A DNA stretch of 64,000 nucleotides from Nitzschia sp. pyKryTriq1 (lineage: Eukaryota > Bacillariophyta > Bacillariophyceae > Bacillariales > Bacillariaceae): assembly GCA_956465555.1 (NCBI GenBank), contig OY101116.1, positions 3,720,001-3,784,000 of the forward strand. The letters are read 5' to 3'. The notes below the pieces were generated by a model. The model did not search any database, was not told the DNA's origin, and saw only the letters and a list, made by a program, of their open reading frames with translations. Made by a program: the position numbers and the translations under genes. Below are positions 4,353 through 47,669 of the stretch, in pieces. Position 1 is the first letter of the stretch. The number at the start of each line of letters is the position of its first letter.

Positions 4353-7300
4353 ATGAACGGCAAGAAAGCGACCCTTGGGCAGCTCTTCGCAGCGACAATG
4401 TTGCTGGCTCAACTGGGTGATCGAGTAAGCGCTCAGCAAGCGGACAGCAGGATCTGGCTTCCTGGTGCCACAGGGTCTGGGCCATTTGATGTTGCAGAAG
4501 CTTGGGCCACTGCCTTTGTGGCGGTATATCCTGAAGCACATGTGACACTGTCCAGCGTTGGTTCTGGAGCAGCACAAAAGGCGCTCTGGGGATCCGTTGA
4601 CTGCGAGGGCCGACCAGTTGACGCAATTTGCGCGCAGAATGAAGTGAACCAAACCGTTTGGGGGCTAGGTGATGCTCCCATTGAATCCAAAGTCTACGAA
4701 GAACAGTCCGTTCACCGACTCCAGCAGTTCCCAGCTTGTTCGGGTGCAGTGGCCGTTGCTTATTCCAAGGAAGTTTCAACCGAAGTTCCTTTGAGATTGA
4801 CATTTGACGTCCTGGCTGGTATTTTCAATTCATCGATTGTGTACTGGGACGATCCCAGCATTCAGGCCATTAATCCTACCATCATTCTGCCCGACAAAGA
4901 GATCTCCACAATCGTCCGTTCGGACTCTTCTGGTCAGACTTCAATCATCACTGACGCACTTGGTTACCACGTTCCCACGTGGCCAGACGAAGCGGTTGGA
5001 CAGCTACCAGAGTGGCCGCTGGGAGATCTCCATCATCCTAGTGAGCTCGTTCAATCTTGTGCCCTCAGAGGTGAGAACGAAACACTGAATGCCTTTGAGG
5101 CGGAAGGCAAGTCTGGTATTTCGCTTGGCATGCTCCGGGTGCCTTACAGCATTGGCTACGTGGAGGCTGGGGCTTTGGAAAGATGGTCTGAATTTCTTGG
5201 TATGGCCGAAATCGGCAAACCCAATGACCCAGACTCTTTTGTCGGTCCCACTGAAGAAGGTCTTGTAATCCAAATGGACGGACTTTCTGTCCACCTAGAC
5301 CCCAACACCCTGGGAGTGAACCTAGCTGCCTCCGATGCTCCCCTGGGGGGGTATCCAATCGCAGGCTACGCCTACTGGTATCTCAAGAAAGATGCTTCTG
5401 CCTACACAAACTGCTACCAAGCATGGCTGGTCTGCAAATTCGTGGAGTGGTCCTACACACACCCTCAAGCAGCTGAGTTGGCGCGAGGCTATGGGTGGGT
5501 AGTGCCGCCCGAGTCAGTGGTCGAAAAGACACTCGAGCGCCTCCGCGAGGTCCAGTGCTTGAACAAAGAAGAAAACCCACCCAAAGTCATCTCAGCCATG
5601 AGCTACACCCCCCCTCCATATCGGACTGAGAGCGAGGTGGATGTTGAAATGTATGCCAGCATCGGAGCCGCTGTTTTTGTCATCCTGGTAGTGCTTTTGT
5701 GTCGATGGCGGGAGATGCATAAAAGAAATGCCGACCATGTGTGGAAGGTTGACAAAAAGGAGCTTATCTTCCAAGAGCCTCCACAGGTCATCGGGCGGGG
5801 TTCATTTGGTCTCGTGCTTCTTGCAGAGTACCGTGGAACCAGAGTTGCCGTGAAAAGAGCGCTTGCCCCCAACAACAACAAAGGCGGCTCGCTAAAGAAA
5901 TCTCGGGGCAAGGGTTCAGTTACCAAAAACCCAATCTTTGACGCCGAAAGGGACGCGACCCCATACGATTCAGGAAGTTCTGGCGGAAGTGGTGGCAGTG
6001 GCAGTGATGGAAGTGGCACAGGCTTGAATTCAGGGGAATATAATCAGCCTGGAGAAGGTTCAACGGTGCCTAAGGGACCACCATCTGGTTCAAGTCTCCA
6101 ACGAAAGTCGAGTCTTTTTCGATTTACTTCCTCGAATTCTCGGACCGTGGGCCGCCAGGATTTTATTGAGGAAATGCGAATTCTTGCCAGGCTCCGACAC
6201 CCATGCATCACGACGGTCATGGGCGCAGTATTGAACATGTATGAAGAGCCCATGTTGATCATGGAGTACATGGAACACGGGTCTTTGTATGATATTCTCC
6301 ATAATGACACTTTGGTTCTGGATGAAGAACTCATTGTTCCCATCATTCAAGACGTTTCACAAGGGCTTCGGTTCCTCCATGCGGGTGTGCCTCCTGTGAT
6401 TCACGGCGACCTCAAGGCAAAGAACGTTCTTGTTGATAGACGATTCCGGGCAAAGGTTGCCGACTTTGGTCTTTCGCAAAGAAGCACCGAGCGCACCTGT
6501 GGGACGCCCTACTTCATGGCACCGGAATTGCTTGCGGGCAAAAGCGTCAACTCGGCAACTTCTGACGTCTATGCTTTTGGAATCCTTCTCTACGAATCCT
6601 TTTCTCGAAAAGACCCATACGAAGGGGAGAAAATTGAAGTTGTAATTCAGGAAATCATCGACCCTGAAATCAACAAACGACCTCCAGTTCCTCCACAAAT
6701 GCCCGAGAGTATTGTAGGCATCATGCAAGACTGTCTTGAAACCGATCCAGAACTCCGCCCTAGTGCCGCAGAATTGGACAACAGGCTCAAGCGCGTCGAT
6801 GCAGACAAAGTTGCTAGCAACAAGCCACTGAAACCAAAGGGCTCCAACGTCTCCCTGTTCGACATCTTCCCGCGCCATGTCGCTGAAGCTCTTCGAGATG
6901 GGCGAAAAGTTGAACCGGAGCACAAAGACTGCGTCACATTGTTTTTCTCAGACATTGTCGGTTTCACGGACATAAGCGCCAGTTTGAAACCTGAAAAGGT
7001 CGCACAAATGCTTGACCGTCTTTACAACATTTTTGACGACATCTCGGCTAAACATGATGTTTTCAAGGTTGAAACTATCGGAGATGCGTACATGGCGTGC
7101 ACGAACTTAGTCAAAGACCAGTCGCAGGATCACGCCAAGCGCATCGCCTTGTTCGCCATCGAAGCTATGGAAGCGGCGAGCAAGACTTTGATCGATTTCG
7201 AGAATCCGGAATTGGGATACATCAACATCAGGGCGGGATTTCATAGTGGACCTGTGGTTGCAGATGTGGTGGGAAATCGAAACCCGCGATACTGCTTGTT

Positions 7301-7769
7301 TGGGGACACGGTCAATACAGCTAGCAGGATGGAAAGCAGTAGTGAAAGAAATCGCATTCAGTGCTCCAAACCGACTCGTGATCTTATCCGTCGCCAAATG
7401 CCACAGATGTCGATTTCTCTTCGGGGCAAGATCCCAATCAAAGGAAAAGGCAATATGATCACCTACTGGGTAAACGAGAAGCCAAACGCAATTGGGAATG
7501 TGATGACTTCGTATGAAGAGCTACCACTAACGGAACTTGACAAATCGGGGCGGCAAGGGACGATGGATGCTAAGCAGTCCATTACTCCCGAACTCCCCAA
7601 GGTGTTGAAAGAAAGCGCCGAAGCAATCTTCGCTCCAGAGGCCCCGCGACCGACTTCGAACAAAAAAGACCTCATTGGGCAATCAGCCTCTGAATCTGCG
7701 GAGTCAAGAAACGCTCTAAGGAATTGGCTCAAGCACAACAGCAACTACGAAGGGGACAACATGGTATAA
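4353..7769 (+). CDS. receptor guanylate cyclase with PstS-type phosphate-binding ectodomain and kinase domain
   Basis: 1138 residues, one exon. Order: signal peptide (1-27, ending VSA); PstS-like type II periplasmic-binding fold (about 30-415); one membrane helix (about 436-455); protein kinase (about 470-790); class III nucleotidyl cyclase (about 850-1040); unstructured tail. The ectodomain keeps PstS landmarks: GATGSGPF at 38-45, GSGAAQ at 70-75, GDAPI with D107, and RSDSSGQT at 189-196, equivalent to the bacterial phosphate loop. The kinase has VAVK (K501), HGDLKAKN (D686) and DFG (D704), so it looks catalytically able. A Gly/Ser-rich insert of about 100 residues follows K501. The cyclase has metal-binding Asp in FSDIVGF (D867) and IGDAY (D911), and the guanylate-specific pair E907 and C981. 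Inferred role: a plasma-membrane receptor turning external phosphate, or a similar anion, into cGMP. Ligand untested. Confidence 0.9.
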   Translation: MNGKKATLGQLFAATMLLAQLGDRVSAQQADSRIWLPGATGSGPFDVAEAWATAFVAVYPEAHVTLSSVGSGAAQKALWGSVDCEGRPVDAICAQNEVNQTVWGLGDAPIESKVYEEQSVHRLQQFPACSGAVAVAYSKEVSTEVPLRLTFDVLAGIFNSSIVYWDDPSIQAINPTIILPDKEISTIVRSDSSGQTSIITDALGYHVPTWPDEAVGQLPEWPLGDLHHPSELVQSCALRGENETLNAFEAEGKSGISLGMLRVPYSIGYVEAGALERWSEFLGMAEIGKPNDPDSFVGPTEEGLVIQMDGLSVHLDPNTLGVNLAASDAPLGGYPIAGYAYWYLKKDASAYTNCYQAWLVCKFVEWSYTHPQAAELARGYGWVVPPESVVEKTLERLREVQCLNKEENPPKVISAMSYTPPPYRTESEVDVEMYASIGAAVFVILVVLLCRWREMHKRNADHVWKVDKKELIFQEPPQVIGRGSFGLVLLAEYRGTRVAVKRALAPNNNKGGSLKKSRGKGSVTKNPIFDAERDATPYDSGSSGGSGGSGSDGSGTGLNSGEYNQPGEGSTVPKGPPSGSSLQRKSSLFRFTSSNSRTVGRQDFIEEMRILARLRHPCITTVMGAVLNMYEEPMLIMEYMEHGSLYDILHNDTLVLDEELIVPIIQDVSQGLRFLHAGVPPVIHGDLKAKNVLVDRRFRAKVADFGLSQRSTERTCGTPYFMAPELLAGKSVNSATSDVYAFGILLYESFSRKDPYEGEKIEVVIQEIIDPEINKRPPVPPQMPESIVGIMQDCLETDPELRPSAAELDNRLKRVDADKVASNKPLKPKGSNVSLFDIFPRHVAEALRDGRKVEPEHKDCVTLFFSDIVGFTDISASLKPEKVAQMLDRLYNIFDDISAKHDVFKVETIGDAYMACTNLVKDQSQDHAKRIALFAIEAMEAASKTLIDFENPELGYINIRAGFHSGPVVADVVGNRNPRYCLFGDTVNTASRMESSSERNRIQCSKPTRDLIRRQMPQMSISLRGKIPIKGKGNMITYWVNEKPNAIGNVMTSYEELPLTELDKSGRQGTMDAKQSITPELPKVLKESAEAIFAPEAPRPTSNKKDLIGQSASESAESRNALRNWLKHNSNYEGDNMV

Positions 7770-8077: not shown

Positions 8078-10066
8078 CTAGTTCATTTTATTGCCAAGTT
8101 CCCGTTTGAGTTCTTCGTATTTTTGCAGCTTCTCCATCATTTGAGTGGCGAGCCCGATGGCGTATTCATTGGATTGATCAACTTGTACGCTTTCGTACAA
8201 TATCGCCGCCTTTTCATGGATATCTTCTGTACAGTGGGCTTTAGCCACCAAAAGATTCGATTCTGTTCTTGACAAGGCTGCTTCGGTATTCCTAACCCCC
8301 CCTTCCCTTCGTTTTTGATTCACGACTGCAAAAGCTTCGTCCAACAATTCATTCGCTCGATCGCACCGTTTCAGATTGAAGAGTACCATGGCGTAGACGA
8401 AGGTATTGTTGGGTCCTTCGACATGAGGATCTCCGATGGGTCTCAACACTGGCTCTGCTTCCTCGAAACGGCCCTTGAGAGACAATTCGTATCCATAGTT
8501 GTATCTCGTATGCATACTTTTGGAATTGATGTAATAGGCCGACTCCCAGAGTCGCAGTGGATCACTCCAGGCTAGATTGCGCTCATGGGTCCGTCCACAG
8601 CATATCAGACATTGGAACATGAAGAAGAAGTGCGCCACCCAGAATTGGCGTTGACGCTTGGTATCAAAGGCTGTCGGCATACTAACCTTGCCTTTGAGCA
8701 AGTAATGTTGCAACAGAGACGCCTCTAGCAGCAAAAATCCAAAAAGAGGAAGATAAATGACTCGATCTGCCTTCATCAAACCGACCACCACCAGGATATT
8801 GCTGGAAAGTAAAAAGGGACTAAAAGCAAATGCCCAAACGCCCATGTTGACTTTTCGCAAGAGAGCATCGTTCCGGAAATAGGTTCGACTGCTATTATTG
8901 CCATCGCGAGGTCGTGCTGCGGATGGTCCAAGACCGACAATCAAACTCCAAAAGCTCACGGCTGCTCCATACCATAGGCACAGAACAACCATTGCTCGAG
9001 GATCCGACAGGCTACGAATCAAGTCAACGCTGAGACCCGACCAGTCGGGACAGAGATAGTAGGGGTAGAGCGCATCTCGAATGTATAAACAGTAGACCCA
9101 GCTGACAGAAAAGGCTCGAGTGAACCTATCCTTGGCAAATCCAGCAGGATTTTGTGCCTCGATGAAATCGGGAACCGTTTCTCCGTTGAGAATGTATCGC
9201 CAAAATACAACCACCAAGGTTTCCACCGCCAAGACGAGAGTTCGAATGACAAATCGAATGGCGGATGACTCTCGTGCCACTACTAGTTTTTTCCACAAAT
9301 TGACAACATTTCCATGATGCTGTAAAAAGTCCCACAATACTAGCGTGATCAACGTCGTAGCACCTTGTTCCTTGCTAAACAAGGACAACGTCATGAAGAG
9401 CCAAGGAATAATGTAGATGCCGAAGAATCGGCCCACTCGGCTTCCCTCTGGAGACGACGATGTGGCCTCTGTTGTATCGGTAGGATCTTTGCTTGCAACG
9501 GCGGGATGATGTTCGTTATCGATTGCTTGAGTAAGTGACTTGGCAAAACTCAAAAAGGCAATGCACGAGAAAAGACTCATCAGCATCTCTCCGCGACTGG
9601 TAATGTTGCTGACCACTTCAGCGTGCACTGGATGGACCCCAAACAGAAACCCCACAATGAGCTGCGAGACAACGTCCGGTAAAATGTACCACGTGGCTTC
9701 AGTAATCAATCCCGTGACAGCCCCGTGCAACAGAACATTGACCAAGTGAAAGGAAAATGTCGGTGGGTGTTTTTCTCCCGAAGCTTGGAAACTCGGCCGG
9801 GACGTCTCAAAGACATAATTCAGCTTGAGCGACAAGGTTGTCAACGGACGGAAGGACTTGTGCGAGCCCGCTTCCTTCATCTCCTGTCCCCAAAAGTCCC
9901 GAGTAAAGGCTTCCTTCCATGGCACTTGGCCCGTCACTACGACATTTCTAATGACCGACCCAGCATCGTCGTACACGTATTTTCCATTCAGCGCCGTCCA
10001 ATCCCAGTACGCAATCACAGCCACCAAAGCCGTCCAGAAGGAAGGACGCTTCCAGAAACCGAGCAT
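8078..10066 (-). CDS. TMTC-like O-mannosyltransferase (membrane, TPR)
   Basis: 662 residues, single exon. The N-terminal half has the TMTC family hallmarks: a first membrane segment, then the acidic loop KYVYDDAGSVIRN, a DFWG motif, SHKSFRPLT, FHLVNVLLHG and GVHPVHAEVV. About ten hydrophobic segments follow. The C-terminal 150 residues contain weak TPR-like helices (around RYNYGYELSLKGRFEEAE and FNLKRCDRANELLDEA). In animals TMTC proteins sit in the ER membrane and transfer mannose from dolichol-phosphate-mannose to cadherin-type domains. Diatoms lack classical cadherins, so the acceptor here is unknown. The TPR part is shorter than in animal TMTCs. ATG at 10066 begins directly before the first membrane segment, which supports the start. 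Confidence 0.8.
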   Translation of the reverse strand: MLGFWKRPSFWTALVAVIAYWDWTALNGKYVYDDAGSVIRNVVVTGQVPWKEAFTRDFWGQEMKEAGSHKSFRPLTTLSLKLNYVFETSRPSFQASGEKHPPTFSFHLVNVLLHGAVTGLITEATWYILPDVVSQLIVGFLFGVHPVHAEVVSNITSRGEMLMSLFSCIAFLSFAKSLTQAIDNEHHPAVASKDPTDTTEATSSSPEGSRVGRFFGIYIIPWLFMTLSLFSKEQGATTLITLVLWDFLQHHGNVVNLWKKLVVARESSAIRFVIRTLVLAVETLVVVFWRYILNGETVPDFIEAQNPAGFAKDRFTRAFSVSWVYCLYIRDALYPYYLCPDWSGLSVDLIRSLSDPRAMVVLCLWYGAAVSFWSLIVGLGPSAARPRDGNNSSRTYFRNDALLRKVNMGVWAFAFSPFLLSSNILVVVGLMKADRVIYLPLFGFLLLEASLLQHYLLKGKVSMPTAFDTKRQRQFWVAHFFFMFQCLICCGRTHERNLAWSDPLRLWESAYYINSKSMHTRYNYGYELSLKGRFEEAEPVLRPIGDPHVEGPNNTFVYAMVLFNLKRCDRANELLDEAFAVVNQKRREGGVRNTEAALSRTESNLLVAKAHCTEDIHEKAAILYESVQVDQSNEYAIGLATQMMEKLQKYEELKRELGNKMN

Positions 10067-28120: not shown

Positions 28121-29686
28121 CTATTGTTTGCTATCCTCCGCGTTTCTTAAAAAGTCCATTAGGATAGGGGCCACTTGTTTCCTACTTCCCTTGGCGTTCC
28201 CTTGTTCCATTGTCACTCTATAAAGCCCTGTCGCCAAATCTTTCGTCGTTTCCTTGTTGGCAAGTTGAATCTGCAATGAACCCTCTTTCTCCAAGAACCG
28301 CACTAGTGATTGGACTAGGCTTTCGTCAAAACTGGACAAAAGTATTTGCCTCTTTGGACTGCCATTTTCCACGGTCATGAACATGATGCCAAAAAAATTT
28401 TGGGCTGTAGGAAGCAAATATTCATCGGCGATACTCTTGAAGACATCTGACTTCTCCAAGAATTCGGGCATAGATTGTAGCACCGATGAGACTCCAAACG
28501 TGAGGAGATTGTTATTTGGGTCTTTCCCTCTTTCGACTGTGAACGATTTGTAATCCAGTTTCAAAGCTTGCAAGGCAGTCAAACCATTCCAGAATTCGGG
28601 TTGAAATTTCTGATTTTGCAACGTATCGAATAGTTTCGTGAGATCTGGGGATGCTCCAGTCTTCTCATCTTGGCCATCCTCATCCCCACAGATATTGGAT
28701 GGTAGCTGTAGCGCCCCCCAATCGGTTTCTTTTATCAAAGTTTCCACCGCTTTTCGATCTCTCGCTGTCACTTTGCCTGCTTGGACCGATAGATTGACGG
28801 AATCCAATAGAATCACCCCTAATAGGAGAATCGATAGACTTGGTGGGATTGGTACCGCCGCATCCGATGATTCTTTCATCGAGGTGGGGACATGGACATA
28901 TTTCTTCCATTGCTCCACAAGAAGAGTACAGGTACTTGCTACCAAGGCTGATGACGTGGACGCATCAAAAGCGATCATTCGATCTTCACTTCCATCACCA
29001 TTGCTGCACGTGTCTGTGTGGTACCCTTCGTCCAAATGATGATCCAAAATAGTGTCCACCTTCCAGACACTTGATTTTTCGGTAAGAGTCAATTGATTGT
29101 GATCGACCAGCGTGACGGATGCGACATCGGGCAGGCCGTCTGGATGGTCAATGGTCAGAAAAGATGAGCGATCGAAATCTGTAACTCCTGACAATTTGAG
29201 AAGATACCTAGTTTCCGGTCGCAACGACTTTAAATCCTCCAGTGGAATGGAAATGATGGGCACCGTCGGTTTCCGTCGAATGACCGTGTCCAGGTAAGCC
29301 AATCCGATGGAGCTAACGATGCTATCGGCATCCCCAGCTGGATTGCCAAGAGCCAACCGAGGAGCAGAACCATCATCATCATTGTCTCCAAAAGGCGGGG
29401 GGAGTGGTCTGGCGGAAGAAGCGGTTTGTTTCAGAAAGTCCGCAACGGATGGGAAAGCTGTACATGTTGTAGCGCTTGAAGAATCAAACGATGATAATGA
29501 TGATGATGATATCATCCTTCGAAAAATAGAAGTTGACTTTTGAGAATACCTGTACAACGACGGTCGTCTGCCTGTGGTGGCTCCTCGTTGTTGACGTTGA
29601 AATCCCAAAGATAAATAATAATGTCGTCCGCCCCTGCAGCACAAGAAAAAGAAGGCAGTGGTTGCTTTCCTACTACTAGACTTCAT
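28121..29686 (-). CDS. DHH/DHHA2 exopolyphosphatase (PPX1/prune-like)
   Basis: 521 residues, single exon. After a basic Ser-rich N-terminus that may target an organelle, the DHH superfamily motifs appear in order: NPAGDADS (motif with metal-binding Asp), VTLVDHNQL, and LDHHLDEG (the DHH-type motif), then a DHHA2 C-terminal domain (GVILLDSVNL, AVETLIKETDW, KDYKSF-like segment LDYKSFTV, and FGVSSVLQ). Fungal PPX1 and animal prune share this layout and hydrolyse short polyphosphate or pyrophosphate-like substrates with divalent metals. The DHN variant in place of one DHH is seen in PPX1-type enzymes. Likely removes terminal phosphate from polyphosphate. Confidence 0.85.
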   Translation of the reverse strand: MKSSSRKATTAFFFLCCRGGRHYYLSLGFQRQQRGATTGRRPSLYRYSQKSTSIFRRMISSSSLSSFDSSSATTCTAFPSVADFLKQTASSARPLPPPFGDNDDDGSAPRLALGNPAGDADSIVSSIGLAYLDTVIRRKPTVPIISIPLEDLKSLRPETRYLLKLSGVTDFDRSSFLTIDHPDGLPDVASVTLVDHNQLTLTEKSSVWKVDTILDHHLDEGYHTDTCSNGDGSEDRMIAFDASTSSALVASTCTLLVEQWKKYVHVPTSMKESSDAAVPIPPSLSILLLGVILLDSVNLSVQAGKVTARDRKAVETLIKETDWGALQLPSNICGDEDGQDEKTGASPDLTKLFDTLQNQKFQPEFWNGLTALQALKLDYKSFTVERGKDPNNNLLTFGVSSVLQSMPEFLEKSDVFKSIADEYLLPTAQNFFGIMFMTVENGSPKRQILLSSFDESLVQSLVRFLEKEGSLQIQLANKETTKDLATGLYRVTMEQGNAKGSRKQVAPILMDFLRNAEDSKQ

Positions 29687-31665: not shown

Positions 31666-34600
31666 ATGAACGACGCCGAGAAAAGTACGGCCTCTGGTGC
31701 AAGTGACAATGATGATGACTACAGTAGCAGCGCAGGTACTGGTTCCAGCAAGGGAAACAACGGCAGCACCAGCACGGGAGAGTCCGAGTCTGCCGGCACA
31801 TACAGCAGCAGCAATAATGACTCCTCGACCGGCAAAGGGCAGCTTGCACGAAGAGAGACTGAAAACGTTAACCGTCTTCGATACATGGTCCTCGCTATCC
31901 TCTTCATGGCTGCAGTTGGAGTATCAGTCATGGTGTTTTTGATCAGTTCAAATTCGGAAGATGAAGAAATGGCCACCCAGTTCGATTCTGCGTCCGCTCG
32001 CTTGTCGGATGCATTTGACGCCATTCGAACCGAACGCATTGCTACTTTGGCCAGTTTGGCCGTTGCCGCTATTGCTCACGGAGTTGATCACAGTCGAGAC
32101 TGGCCCTTTGTCAGTCTTTCTTCGTACCAACAACGTGCGTTTACGGCCAAGCAGAACTCTGGTGTTCTGCAGGTCAGCATCGCCCCATATGTTTCTGCTA
32201 AAGATCGCGAACTTTGGGAAGAATATATCGTGAGCAATGAAGCTGAGGTGGACTGGATTGAGCGCTCCGTCACCTATCAACAAGAGGTTGGTGCGGAAGT
32301 TTTCATAAAAAACTACGGTGAATCGTTCCGCGGTAACGTGAACACGTCCCACTCCATCAAGCGCTGGGATGATGTGGAGAACACGGTTGTTCCTCTGGAC
32401 TATGGAACGAAGGACGACTATCTCCCATTCTGGGAGATGTCTCCTCTCCTAAGTTATGACGAAGTCAACATTGATATGTTGCAAGAAGGTGATGAACGGG
32501 GATACTATGGAAACTTGAGCATTGCAGAGGGTGCAATTGTCATCGGAGACATGAACTATCACATGCCTGGAGGCATTGATTCTCCAGATGCCACAACTTC
32601 CTCCTACGCGCAGTTGCTCAGCATTGATGCGGGACGCGAGGTCAGGTATGAAGGGGACCCCATGACCAACTTGTTCATTCCAATTTTCGATTCGTTTGAA
32701 GATGATCGAGTCCCAAGGGCCGTGCTGGTTGGGTTTTTCAATTGGGGGAACCTATTCAAGGGTGTCCTGCCTGACAACCTCAAAGGCATCGACGTTGTGC
32801 TCAAGAATACCTGCTTTGACCCATTTACGTTCCGAGTGGTCGGAGAGAACGTGATCCCTCGTGGAAAAGGCGTAAGTGAAGCCGAGGACCCAAGCTTTCC
32901 CTTGACTGTGTCCATGCATTTCTAACCGTGATTTCCATCCCTTGGCTCCTCTGATTTTAGGACCTCCACGAGAATGCATTCAACGACTGGGAAGTGAAGA
33001 GTGATATTCTTCAGAGTGGAAGGACCGCCGATGGAACCAAAACTGGACTTGGTTTCGTTGACCGAGAATGTAAATATTCCATTTCCATCTATCCAAGTGA
33101 AGCGTTTGCTAACGAGTTTGAAACTCCCACCCCATGGATTTTGGTTTCTGCGGTAGCAGGAGTTCTTCTTTTTGCTATCATCATGTTCTTCGTGTACGAC
33201 CACTTGGTTGAACGTCGTCAGTCTTTGGTCCTCCGGAAGGCCGTGCAATCGACTGCTATTGTCTCGTCGTTGTTTCCAAAAACCGTCCGCGATCGCCTCA
33301 TGAACGGCGCAGCCTCACCAGAAGACGGCGACGTGAAAAACATTTCAGCATTTCGAGACAGGCTTCGCAACAAGCAGAAGCAGGGCTTGAACCCTCAAGC
33401 AGACAAGCTGGAACAAGATAGCACTCTGCCTGGGATGGGTGATTACATGGGTGATACTATTGCTGACTTGTTCCCCCACTGCACAGTTCTATTCGCTGGT
33501 ACGTAGTGCGAGACATCTGGAAAATGTATCCAATTTGAAAACGCTCTCACTTTCTTCGTCCACTCTCGTCTTGACAGATATCGCCGGTTTCACTGCTTGG
33601 AGCTCTACTCGAGATCCCTCTCAAGTTTTCACTCTTCTCCAGAATTTGTATCAGGCATTCGACAAAGTTGCAATGAGGCGCCGGGTGTTCAAGGTGGAAA
33701 CCATTGGAGACTCTTGTAAGTGAAGACACTGTGGTACAGCGCGGAAAGGGAGCCGCTGATTAGGAAGACTCCTCATGGCTCACTCTTCTTTTTGTGCTTC
33801 ACTTTACAGATGTGGCAGTAACCGGCCTTCCAGAACCGCAACAGGATCACGCTATTATCATGGCGAAGTTTGCCCGCGACTGTTTGCAGAAAATGGAGGA
33901 AGTGACGAGTGCCCTCGAAGTTCGTCTCGGCCCCGATACGACCGACCTTTCGATTCGAGTTGGTATGAACAGGTAAGCAAGCATCATCGAGAGGGGAAGA
34001 GAAGCAGGTGCAGTAGAAGAACAATAAAAATACTCACACCCGCCTCGTCTCGTCTCTTCCTCTATTGTAGTGGCCAAGTTACGGGTGGCGTTTTGAGAGG
34101 AGACCGCGCTCGTTTTCAATTGTTCGGAGATACTGTCAACACTGCTGCACGCATGGAAAGTACCGGAGAGCGCGGCCGTATTCAGCTGTCGCAGAGTACT
34201 TGTGATTTGCTGGTTAGCGCAGGAAAAGAACGATGGGTCTTTCCACGCAAAGATACAGTGGCGGCTAAAGGCAAGGGTATTCTTCAAACTTATTGGTTGC
34301 AAATGGATGGCGGGCCCCGAGCTGCAAACATGGCCGATTCTTCTAGCGCTGTGCTTCAAGAAAATGCAGTAGCTCTAGTGCCCAACACACCGCACGCACT
34401 GAACTCTGCTACTGTAGCAGGCAAACAAGAATCCCGCCTCGTCGGTTGGATGACTGAAGTCTTGTTGGATTACGTGAAACAGATTGTAAGCGATGAACCA
34501 AAGGAGGGTGGGCTCACTCAACTCTTCCTACACATTCCAACCGAAACTCACTTTGCATTTCTCTTCTCTCGCTATTTCTTCTTTAGGTGGCCAAGAACAA

Positions 34601-35783
34601 GGTCGCTCGAGGTGGAACTCCGCGCTCCTCTGGAGTTGCCTACCGCCACGATCCTGGAACTATTTGCTTGGATGAGCTGGTGGAGTCCTTCCCACTTCCC
34701 AAAGAAAACACCCAAGAAGTTTCCTTGGCCATGGACCAATACTACCGTTCCATTGAATTGCACCCTGACGTGGCCAAGCAACTCCGCCAGTATGTCGCGG
34801 AAATCTCTTATCGATACCATGCTGAAAATCCTTTCCACAACTTTGCTCATGCATGTCATGTGACCATGAGTGTTCACAAGCTTATGAAGCGTGTCGTCAG
34901 TGATCACAATGGAACTGACGAATCGACCACCGGATCTAGCACCCTGAACGAGGACAACAAGCACTCGGCAACGTACGGAATTCTAACATCGGATCCGTTG
35001 ACATTGTTTGCCATCGTTTTTTCTGGCTTGATTCACGACGTCGATCACCGCGGAGTCTCGAACATGCAACTTTCGATAGAAGACCCTGAGCTTGCGGAAC
35101 ACTATCGCAACAAGAGTATAGCCGAACAGAATTCGTTTGATATCGCCTGGGACTTGCTCATGATGAGTCAATTCGACTCCCTTCGACAAGCCATTTTCCC
35201 CACATTGCCGGATCTTATGCGATTCCGCCAAGTGGTTGTCAACACTGTACTTGCCACTGATATATTTGACAAGGAACTCGGAGACATGCGCAAAGCCCGT
35301 TGGGACCGTGTGTTCGGAGACATCGAAACTGATGGTAGCGCGGCAGCAGCAGGATCAGAGAGTATCATCTCTAAAAATACCAGGGCTACCATTGTATTGG
35401 AGCACATCATCCAAGCCTCGGACGTTTCACACACGATGCAGCACTGGCATGTGTACACTAAGTGGAATCGTCGATTGTTTGAAGAAATGCATCTGGCATT
35501 TACACAAGGAAGAATGGGGAAAGACCCCTCCGAATTCTGGTACCAGGGTGAACTTGGATTCTTTGACAACTATGTTATTCCTCTGGCCAAGAAGTTGCAG
35601 GAGTGTCGCGTGTTTGGGGTTTCCAGTGATGAATATCTGAATTACGCCATGTCCAACCGCGCCGAGTGGGAGAGAAAAGGACAATCCATCGTCGAAGATA
35701 TGGTCATATCGATTCAGCCCGTTGAGCAGGAGTCGTCCGAGACCGAGGATGAACCGAATGAAGTACCGGTGGGAGTAGTCTAG
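31666..35783 (+). CDS. membrane class III cyclase fused to class I cyclic-nucleotide phosphodiesterase
   Basis: Six exons: 31666-32871, 32961-33498, 33578-33715, 33810-33972, 34071-34485 and 34587-35783, all GT-AG and in phase; 1218 residues. A Ser/Gly-rich N-terminus, helix 1 (about 72-93), an extracellular domain (about 95-455, perhaps CHASE-like), helix 2 (about 460-482), then cyclase and phosphodiesterase. Cyclase: metal Asp in FADIAGF (D582) and IGDSY, E622 as in guanylate cyclases, but Q698 at the second base-recognition site. Phosphodiesterase: HNFAHACH and the class I signature HDVDHRGVSN (H970), then the C-terminal DVSHTMQHW and EFWYQGELGFFD. One polypeptide can thus make and hydrolyse a cyclic nucleotide at the membrane. 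The small third and fourth exons split the cyclase active site. Confidence 0.9.
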
Positions 35784-44879: not shown

Positions 44880-47669
44880 GGTCCCCGTGGACTGGTTTTC
44901 TAGTCCATCTTTCTTTTATTTCGTCTCTAATACATAAACTGACCAAATAGGTCATTCCTGTCATCTTTGCCCATACGCTTGGTGAGTGGATCCGCCAACA
45001 TTTTATGTGTCGGAACCCATGCCACAATCGTCGCTCCAGCTGCTACCGAGTATCGCGTGACATGGTATGCCAGTTGGTTATGCTTCTTGTCCAAGCGTGA
45101 CTCGACCTTTGATGAGTTCTTGACCACTGTTTCATTATCACATAGTATTTTCGTTGCTCCATCCAGTGGCACGCCAAACATCCGCAATTTGAATCTCAAG
45201 GCTTGGATTGCCTCTGTGCACGTCTTCAGTGCAATAAACTCCGACCCGAAGGTACTTGATTCCACAGTTCGTTGCCTCTTACTATAAAATATGATAGGGG
45301 CCATATTCATGAAAATCAGAAATCCTGTGTGGGATCTTCTCGTCTTCTTGTTGGCCGCATGCGAGGCATCACAATATGCCGTCGTTGTAACGGACTCCCC
45401 TCGAGGTTCAGGTGCTCCCTTTGGGATTTCTTCTGCAGCATCAGTATAAACTTCCTTGAAGTGATTCACTGCTTCGAAATCGAAGTGGATATGCGATAGG
45501 TTCGGCCTTCCTGGGACAAAACATAAGGTCCTCTTGGGATATGCCTTGAGGTATCCGAAGATATTTAGTAGCTCATTCAGATGTCCCCGCCTTGGTCCTG
45601 CCTGGTATTCACTCAGGATCGCAACTTCATGTAAAATATCAATCCTTCCAATCTCCGTTGCCCACCTGAGGATTCCTATCAGTTCTTGGTAGTACGTAGT
45701 CTCATCCTCATCGAGTTCTTCACTTTCATCCAACTCTGGAATACACCCGGCCGTCATGGGAGTTGTGGTCCTTGAAGGTAGGGGTCGTTGGTTCTTTCGC
45801 TTTAGCTTGTCCTCCACTGACTCAAGAGCGGCAATTATATACTTGGAACTATCCATGCACCAACAGTCATAGCCCATGATATCCGTTTTCCAAGTTAACT
45901 TTGCGCCAAGGTAGTCGTCTGGGGGCTTGATCCCATCCAAGCCTCCTTTGAATGTAAATTGATCCATCAATCCCTTCATGATATCTTGAGGCTTCTCGGA
46001 TATGGCTAATATGTCATCAACATACACGAGCACATACTCGTAGTACTTCGATCCGTCTATCTTGGTCGCTGCCCTCATCCATACATCTGGGTCCGCATCG
46101 CTGGGTTTGAATCCGAGGTCAGCAATCTTCATGGCCAAGAAGGATCTGAAGCTCGCCCCTGCTGACTTCAATCCGTACAAGGCGCGTTCCACAATGAAGA
46201 GCGTGCCCTTTTCTGCTCCGAACTCGTCCCCGGCGACCGTGTATATCTTCTCCTTGTTTGGGGCCGTGAGGTATGCATTTTGTATGTCACCGGCCAAAAT
46301 GTCCAGACCGTTAAGAGCCGCCAATGTGAGGCAAATGCGAACAGAGTCCCTCGCCACAACCGAACTATAGGTTACAGAAGCTGGAACATCGGTGGTATGT
46401 CCCCCAGCTACCAACCGAGCTTTTCTTCTGAAGTTCTCACCGAGTTTTACATCAAAGATCATGTGACACTTGATGCCTTGATAGCCAAGTTTCTCCAATT
46501 CATGCGGATTTTGTTCCTCTGACTTCGCGAAAGCGACTCGGACGTTTGCCATTTCCTTTGCAATGGCTTCCTGCCATAGCCTGTTCCCATTTTCTTCATC
46601 AATCTCGATGGCTTCTTTAACCGACTTGGGGATCCGTATTCCATACTTGTGCGTTCGCTGCCAGTACTTGGACTTTACCTTTCCGATCATGTTCTGTCGT
46701 TTCTTCATTGTATATGGTACCCACCAGGCGAACGCCGGTTCTTCTTGTAAGCCGTGTGCTGTAGCAAACTCTGCCAGCTCGATTGGGTACGAGTCTTTCA
46801 GATCCTTGAGGTCGATCCAGTCAGTCATGCCCCCTTTCCATCTGACCTGGATCTGCCAGCCCTTTAGGGTCCTTACACGCGTGGTGGTTCCGTGCTTATT
46901 TAGTCTCATGCCGCGGGAGATCGGCACCGCATTCTTGTCCTTCTTGATATCAATGATTTCGTCAAGCATAAGGTGCCTGTGCCCTTCGTCATCGGTTTGT
47001 GCGAATAAGTTCTCGGCGATTACGTTTGCAGTTATCTTCTCTTCTTCACCGTTCAAGCCCACACACACGTATTGTGCTGTGTTGGTTACGAAGTTATCCG
47101 TCCTCTTGCCTACTGGCTTGCCGTCTTCATCGATCACTCTCTTCTTTACTGAATATTGAACTGGGTGGTGCCTGTGCCCTTCGTCATCGGTTTGTGCGAA
47201 TAAGTTCTCGGCGATTACGTTTGCAGTTATCTTCTCTTCTTCACCGTTCAAGCCCACACACACGTATTGTGCTGTGTTGGTTACGAAGTTATCCGTCCTC
47301 TTGCCTACTGGCTTGCCGTCTTCATCGATCACTCTCTTCTTTACTGAATATTGAACTGGGGTTCCGTCTTCTCCCCGCGGCAGTGTGAACTGCATGTCCA
47401 AATAGGGATCAGGAGCCACTTCATCTGTGTCAGCGTCATCCTGTCCGGCAGGGACGTCGTCATTGCTGATCAGGCGGGTGTACTCTCGGATGAAATCTTC
47501 GTCTTCATCCTCGAGGCTCAGGACATGCGCAGATGGTCCGTGAAGGATCGAGTGATTTGGTCCTCGCTCTTGAATTCAAATCCAAAACAAAACGATTCAA
47601 GCATCCCACGAACGAAAACGATTCCATACGCAACCCCATTGTCATCATAAGAGCACGGGTCTGATAAAC

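Follow-up and report, generated by a model that had tools for sequence, protein, structure and literature searches.

Results

Layout of the receptor gene

The locus analysed here lies on contig OY101116.1 of the diatom Nitzschia sp. pyKryTriq1 (positions 3,720,001 to 3,784,000 of the forward strand), within a stretch of 64,000 nucleotides that is referred to as the window and from whose first letter all positions are counted. An open reading frame (ORF) at 4353–7769 on the forward strand encodes a candidate receptor guanylate cyclase, in which a PstS-type binding domain is followed by one membrane helix, a protein kinase domain and a cyclase domain. Its main features are:

4353–7769, forward strand: whole ORF, receptor guanylate cyclase with PstS-type ectodomain, 1138 amino acids (aa) plus stop
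4353–4430, forward strand: putative signal peptide, aa 1–26, of modest hydrophobicity; the cleavage site is a guess (Kyte-Doolittle only)
4458–5450, forward strand: PstS-type periplasmic-binding domain, PF12849 match at aa 36–366 (Pfam, PDB sequence matches, Foldseek, profile comparison)
5643–5702, forward strand: single transmembrane helix, about aa 431–450, then RWR and a Lys/Arg-containing stretch (hydrophobicity, charge count)
5763–6788, forward strand: TKL-like protein kinase domain, aa 471–812 (Pfam match at 596–812; start of the N-lobe by motifs and a weak CTR1 match)
5868–6122, forward strand: Gly/Ser-rich insert in the kinase N-lobe, about aa 506–590, between the Lys strand and helix C (motifs, codon preference)
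6912–7475, forward strand: class III guanylate cyclase domain, aa 854–1041 (PF00211, PDB matches, motifs)
7476–7766, forward strand: C-terminal tail, aa 1042–1138, without a Pfam match

The ORF listing gave 1138 codons without an internal stop, and an in-frame stop was located five codons 5' of the first ATG. Three Pfam families matched the protein, each above its gathering score: PF12849 (aa 36–366, E = 8.4e-16), PF07714 (aa 596–812, E = 2.9e-45) and PF00211 (aa 854–1041, E = 3.2e-54). No Pfam match to a PDEase_I domain was obtained in the protein. At E up to 1 there was also no match to the type I periplasmic-binding family (ANF receptor), and the ectodomain carries PF12849 instead. The original prediction, made from the letters alone, had placed a signal peptide, a PstS domain, a membrane helix, a kinase and a cyclase in one ORF, and this arrangement was borne out by the Pfam matches and the hydrophobicity profile, with a signal peptide that is weak. 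The domain order, the single helix, the family of the ectodomain, the kinase motifs and the guanylate-type cyclase residues can be read directly from the sequence.

Codon preference in frame 0 was positive in all five scored stretches, the Gly/Ser-rich kinase insert among them, and negative in the other two forward frames of the same stretches. In the single reverse frame scored, the kinase (0.035) and the cyclase (0.075) gave weakly positive values, and the remaining three stretches gave negative ones. The sequence agrees with a single-exon structure of the gene.

The ectodomain belongs to the PstS family

The assignment of the ectodomain to the PstS family, already made in the original prediction, held up in several comparisons. 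PF12849 scored 59 bits against a gathering cut-off of 27, and the NCBIfam model of the phosphate ATP-binding cassette (ABC) transporter protein PstS, TIGR00975, matched with E = 1e-34 (120.1 bits for the whole protein, 125.1 for the ectodomain alone), a score below its cut-off. A PDB sequence search at E up to 10 listed 21 matches, 20 of which bear the name of a phosphate-binding or phosphate-transport protein, though two of these matched only at E = 0.67 and 0.92; the remaining one was a glutamate dehydrogenase (E = 1.5). Profile comparison of the ectodomain with four proteobacterial PstS proteins yielded a probability of 98.9 (E = 3.2e-17). The tblastn search with the ectodomain matched 68 plasmid and 29 phage records, all at less than 60% identity, and among the 30 plasmid and 15 phage rows listed, every annotated one (22 and 13, respectively) named a phosphate-binding or phosphate-transport protein. 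When the ectodomain was aligned with seven of the plasmid and phage PstS sequences, the set was too divergent to serve as a search profile. Viral contigs were scanned with the full-length protein, with its ectodomain and cyclase domain separately and with a degenerate motif, and no relative was found.

Bacterial PstS rows were drawn from a prokaryotic genome collection, in which 578 relatives were found and the best 80 kept; the 42 rows used in the alignment are a narrow, mostly proteobacterial sample, found by two search patterns. Identity of the ectodomain to these rows ranged from 23 to 31%, and several insertions relative to bacterial PstS were present, among them loop insertions at 79–84, 91–102 and 224–246. 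An AlphaFold2 model of the ectodomain built with the 42 rows reached a predicted local distance difference test (pLDDT) score of 78.8 and a predicted TM-score (pTM) of 0.80; the rows bias the fold, so that the model is not independent evidence. With this model, Foldseek (best 50 of 516 matches, E up to 0.001) returned phosphate-binding-type proteins by title at ranks 1–49 and a molybdate binder at rank 50 (E = 2.6e-7). A model built without relatives had a mean pLDDT of 33.5 and was discarded as uninformative.

The phosphate site is largely retained

Residues of the phosphate site, as known from the literature, are numbered as in mature E. coli PstS, and the receptor positions were mapped onto them by alignment:

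4476–4481, forward strand: S42-G43, equivalents of Thr10-Phe11 (Phe to Gly is a departure)
4563–4565, forward strand: S71, equivalent of Ser38
4671–4673, forward strand: D107, equivalent of Asp56
4917–4937, forward strand: R189-x-D191-x-S193-G194-Q195, equivalents of Arg135, Asp137, Ser139, Gly140 and Thr141 (Thr to Gln is a departure)

Six site residues are retained: S71, D107, R189, D191, S193 and G194 correspond to Ser38, Asp56, Arg135, Asp137, Ser139 and Gly140, and all six are the same in 42/42 bacterial rows. The conserved site segments named in the original prediction stood for these six residues, D107 and R189 included, but not at G43 and Q195. Q195 had also been presented as the only differing site residue, which proved incorrect: two residues depart (Phe11 to G43 and Thr141 to Q195), besides the mild change of Thr10 to S42, a position at which Ser also occurs in 3/41 ungapped bacterial rows.

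The suggestion that Q195 might indicate another oxyanion was weakened. The position of Thr141 is occupied by Asp in the solved PstS-1 of M. tuberculosis and in the E. coli entries 1ixg, 1oib and 1pbp, which we take to be a T141D mutant with phosphate bound. Because Asp stands there in phosphate-binding proteins, Q195 need not abolish phosphate binding and is by itself no argument for a different ligand; a shifted ligand is kept alive by G43. Asp56 lets PstS distinguish protonated phosphate from sulfate, and the retention of D107 would thus favour phosphate, arsenate or another protonated oxyanion over sulfate.

One membrane helix separates the ectodomain from the cytoplasmic half

The sole strongly hydrophobic 19-mer of the protein, residues 431–449 (mean Kyte-Doolittle 2.39), lies between the ectodomain and the kinase, and the next-highest peak (1.39) falls within the cyclase domain. 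The N-terminal peak at residues 7–25 is weak (mean 0.85 by this crude measure), so a signal peptide is plausible but not proven. RWR follows the helix directly at 451–453, and residues 454–470 hold 5 Lys/Arg and 4 Asp/Glu, compared with 1 Lys/Arg and 3 Asp/Glu in residues 413–430 before it, a distribution that fits an outside N-terminus. Three of the five N-glycosylation sequons fall in the ectodomain, which contains 7 cysteines against a mean of 0.14 and a maximum of 1 in the 42 bacterial rows. Both traits are as expected of a domain that passes through the secretory pathway.

Kinase and cyclase domains carry complete motifs

The kinase domain has a glycine loop from 481, Lys501, HGD at 684–686, DFG at 704–706 and APE at 723–725, with a candidate helix-C Glu at 606–607. 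Its closest PDB relative is plant CTR1, a TKL kinase; the Pfam match starts at 596, and for the beginning of the N-lobe the evidence consists of motifs and a weak CTR1 match of 6.9 bits. With its catalytic Asp and DFG, the kinase looks active. The 85-residue Gly/Ser-rich insert could possibly be a loop controlled by phosphorylation.

In the cyclase domain, guanylate-type catalytic residues were assigned by motif as Asp867, Asp911, Glu907, Cys981, Asn988 and Arg992, whose roles are those known for this class of cyclase. These motifs align with identical letters in atrial natriuretic peptide receptor 1 (NPR1), which together with guanylyl cyclase C is the closest PDB relative of the domain. For the cytoplasmic half, the best PDB match was again NPR1 (E = 1.6e-70), extending from the helix-C region through the end of the cyclase. 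Between the two domains, where animal receptor guanylate cyclases have a coiled-coil linker, the stretch is shorter than in NPR1, by about 25 gap columns counted by eye.

Genomic neighbourhood

The window contains 18 copies of the plant-type P1BS motif, which we take to be a PHR1/PSR1 site; 11.86 were expected, and 5 of 100 shuffles reached 18.

A second cyclase gene lies in ORF pieces at 31666–35783 on the forward strand, with a partial PF00211 match (33775–34860, E = 4.2e-16) and a PDEase_I match (34731–35780, E = 5e-27). The ORF before these pieces matched no Pfam family, and a hydrophobic stretch was seen in it by eye. This gene resembles the guanylate cyclase/phosphodiesterase (GC/PDE) fusions of diatoms and probably contains introns.

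The convergent downstream neighbour of the receptor gene (8078–10066, reverse strand) is a TMTC-type protein O-mannosyltransferase (DUF1736, E = 2.5e-18, with a query lacking a start codon). About 20 kb from the receptor, at 28121–29686 on the reverse strand, lies a DHH/DHHA2-type phosphoesterase, with DHHA2 above its cut-off (E = 1.7e-10) and DHH just below its own. We understand this family to include some exopolyphosphatases, and its nearness to the receptor is probably a coincidence. An ORF at 44927–47395 on the reverse strand resembles a Copia-type retrotransposon polyprotein, judged from its translation by eye only.

Discussion

Proposed function and alternative explanations

We propose that the gene encodes a single-pass receptor guanylate cyclase whose PstS-type flytrap sensor binds phosphate, a reading that stands at about even chances. 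The protein would be a type I membrane receptor holding its PstS-like venus-flytrap domain outside the plasma membrane, where inorganic phosphate would be caught between the two lobes. Within a receptor dimer, the closing lobes could then move the single transmembrane helices, and this movement may alter the state of the cytoplasmic kinase and the paired cyclase domains, so that the level of cyclic GMP (cGMP) changes. Phosphorylation of targets, or of the Ser-rich insert of the kinase itself, may be a further activity of the receptor. In this scheme we infer phosphate as the ligand, the plasma-membrane location, dimerisation, the sign of the cGMP change and the kinase activity. A broader proposal is that the protein is a dedicated eukaryotic cell-surface receptor for inorganic phosphate, with a bacterial scavenging domain as its sensor and maybe an active kinase, that starts the response of starved diatoms to phosphate resupply; this we hold tentatively, as possible rather than probable.

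Several observations weigh against the phosphate receptor. The TIGR00975 score lies below the equivalog cut-off of 205 bits, so the ectodomain is not a member by that model. Phe and Thr stand at the positions of G43 and Q195 in 42/42 bacterial rows, a count biased for Phe because one of the two retrieval patterns includes Thr10-Phe11, and likewise in 7/7 plasmid and phage PstS sequences, which were found otherwise. The fold of the ectodomain rests on homology, since the model without relatives had so low a pLDDT. The catalytic motif of the kinase is HGD, not HRD, and no P1BS motif lies upstream of the receptor ORF within the window, so that this motif lends the proposal no support.

The TIGR00975 score and the two altered pocket positions, invariant in the sampled PstS proteins, would also suit the same receptor with a ligand other than free phosphate, be it a different oxyanion, an organic phosphate or some other small molecule, its pocket being changed at Gly43, Gln195 and the loop insertions. 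The several insertions relative to bacterial PstS point the same way, but the equivalents of Asp56, Arg135, Asp137, Ser38, Ser139 and Gly140 are retained and Asp replaces Thr141 in solved phosphate-binding proteins, and we judge such a ligand unlikely, though deserving serious attention. Those six retained residues also bear on the idea that the ectodomain binds no small ligand and has a structural or protein-docking role: the two departures within the site would agree with it, but six conserved site residues are unexpected under drift. In a variant of that idea, the signal passes through the kinase and not through the cyclase; the kinase motifs are complete, but so are the cyclase residues, and we give this pair of explanations only a small chance.

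The receptor might instead face the lumen of a vacuole or endosome, reading stored or endocytosed phosphate rather than that of seawater, with topology and chemistry unchanged. The putative signal peptide, the one helix, the sequons and the cysteines indicate no more than a lumenal position of the ectodomain within the secretory pathway, which would hold at the surface and in a vacuole alike; animal single-pass receptor cyclases are established as cell-surface proteins, however, and by this analogy we regard a lumenal receptor as improbable. Least credible is an artefact of the gene model, in which two genes were joined or an in-frame intron was read through. The Gly/Ser-rich insert could in principle be such an intron, but it shares the positive frame-0 codon preference of all five stretches, the codons run from end to end without a stop, and the signal peptide, the membrane helix and the order of the domains make a coherent whole; the chance of an artefact is accordingly very slight.

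Comparison with known systems

Meeda et al. (2024) state that how diatoms sense phosphate is unknown, and the receptor gene offers a concrete candidate for the sensor by which they would register phosphate resupply. Among the titles and abstract starts listed in searches of the open-licence PubMed Central (PMC) literature, none describes a PstS-type receptor cyclase, and the most direct search returned no paper. In the parts of the literature consulted, the diatom receptor-type cyclases with a described topology are GC/PDE fusions with two membrane helices (PMC4726125, PMC8027222). Like the receptor, those of Seminavis robusta are membrane guanylate cyclases of a diatom in which an extracellular sensor is presumed; they carry a phosphodiesterase domain and two helices predicted to span the membrane, whereas the receptor has one strong helix, a kinase and no PDE match. 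Diatom genes have also been annotated as natriuretic peptide receptors in two transcriptome papers, namely PSN0007679 in Pseudo-nitzschia and THAPSDRAFT_263505 in Thalassiosira; they are receptor-cyclase-like as here, and the relevant passages name no sensor domain (PMC6390554, PMC13059764). A passage of PMC3478156 likewise gives the number 263505 for one of the silicon-responsive adenylate/guanylate cyclases, and in that paper cyclic AMP and cGMP levels of diatoms are tied to cell division, not phosphate; the passages of PMC4726125 and PMC8027222 tie cGMP to sexual signalling. Table 1 of Chan et al. 2011 (PMC3237598, cluster A03NE22) contains two diatom PstS-type proteins with a signal peptide, as the receptor putatively has, entered as transporters that putatively came from green algae and for which prokaryotes form the outgroup; neither a kinase nor a cyclase domain is mentioned there. 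Judging from these passages, neither half, PstS or natriuretic-receptor-like cyclase, is new to diatoms as an annotation.

Bacterial PstS (PF12849, TIGR00975; PDB 2abh, 1pc3, 8ods) resembles the receptor ectodomain in sequence family, modelled fold and six site residues. The bacterial protein serves an ABC importer, whereas the PstS domain of the receptor is joined to a kinase and a cyclase and differs by Phe11 to Gly, Thr141 to Gln, the insertions and the 7 Cys. Kinase and cyclase also occur in one chain in the bacterial fusion proteins of TIGR03903, to which the receptor matched with E = 8.8e-19, at 66.9 bits against a cut-off of 705.75 and covering only aa 600–1017.

The parallel with animal receptor guanylate cyclases, and the difference from them, which had both been drawn in the original prediction, were upheld. 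NPR1 and guanylyl cyclase C have the same order of ectodomain, one helix, kinase-type domain and class III cyclase, and the match to NPR1 over the cytoplasmic half is strong; the sensor is unrelated, being of the PstS type II binding-protein fold in the receptor and, as we understand it, of the type I fold in the animal proteins. Within the shared kinase-plus-cyclase plan, the receptor kinase has an intact catalytic Asp and DFG (HGD and DFG), whereas HGN and DYG are aligned in NPR1, which is without the catalytic Asp.

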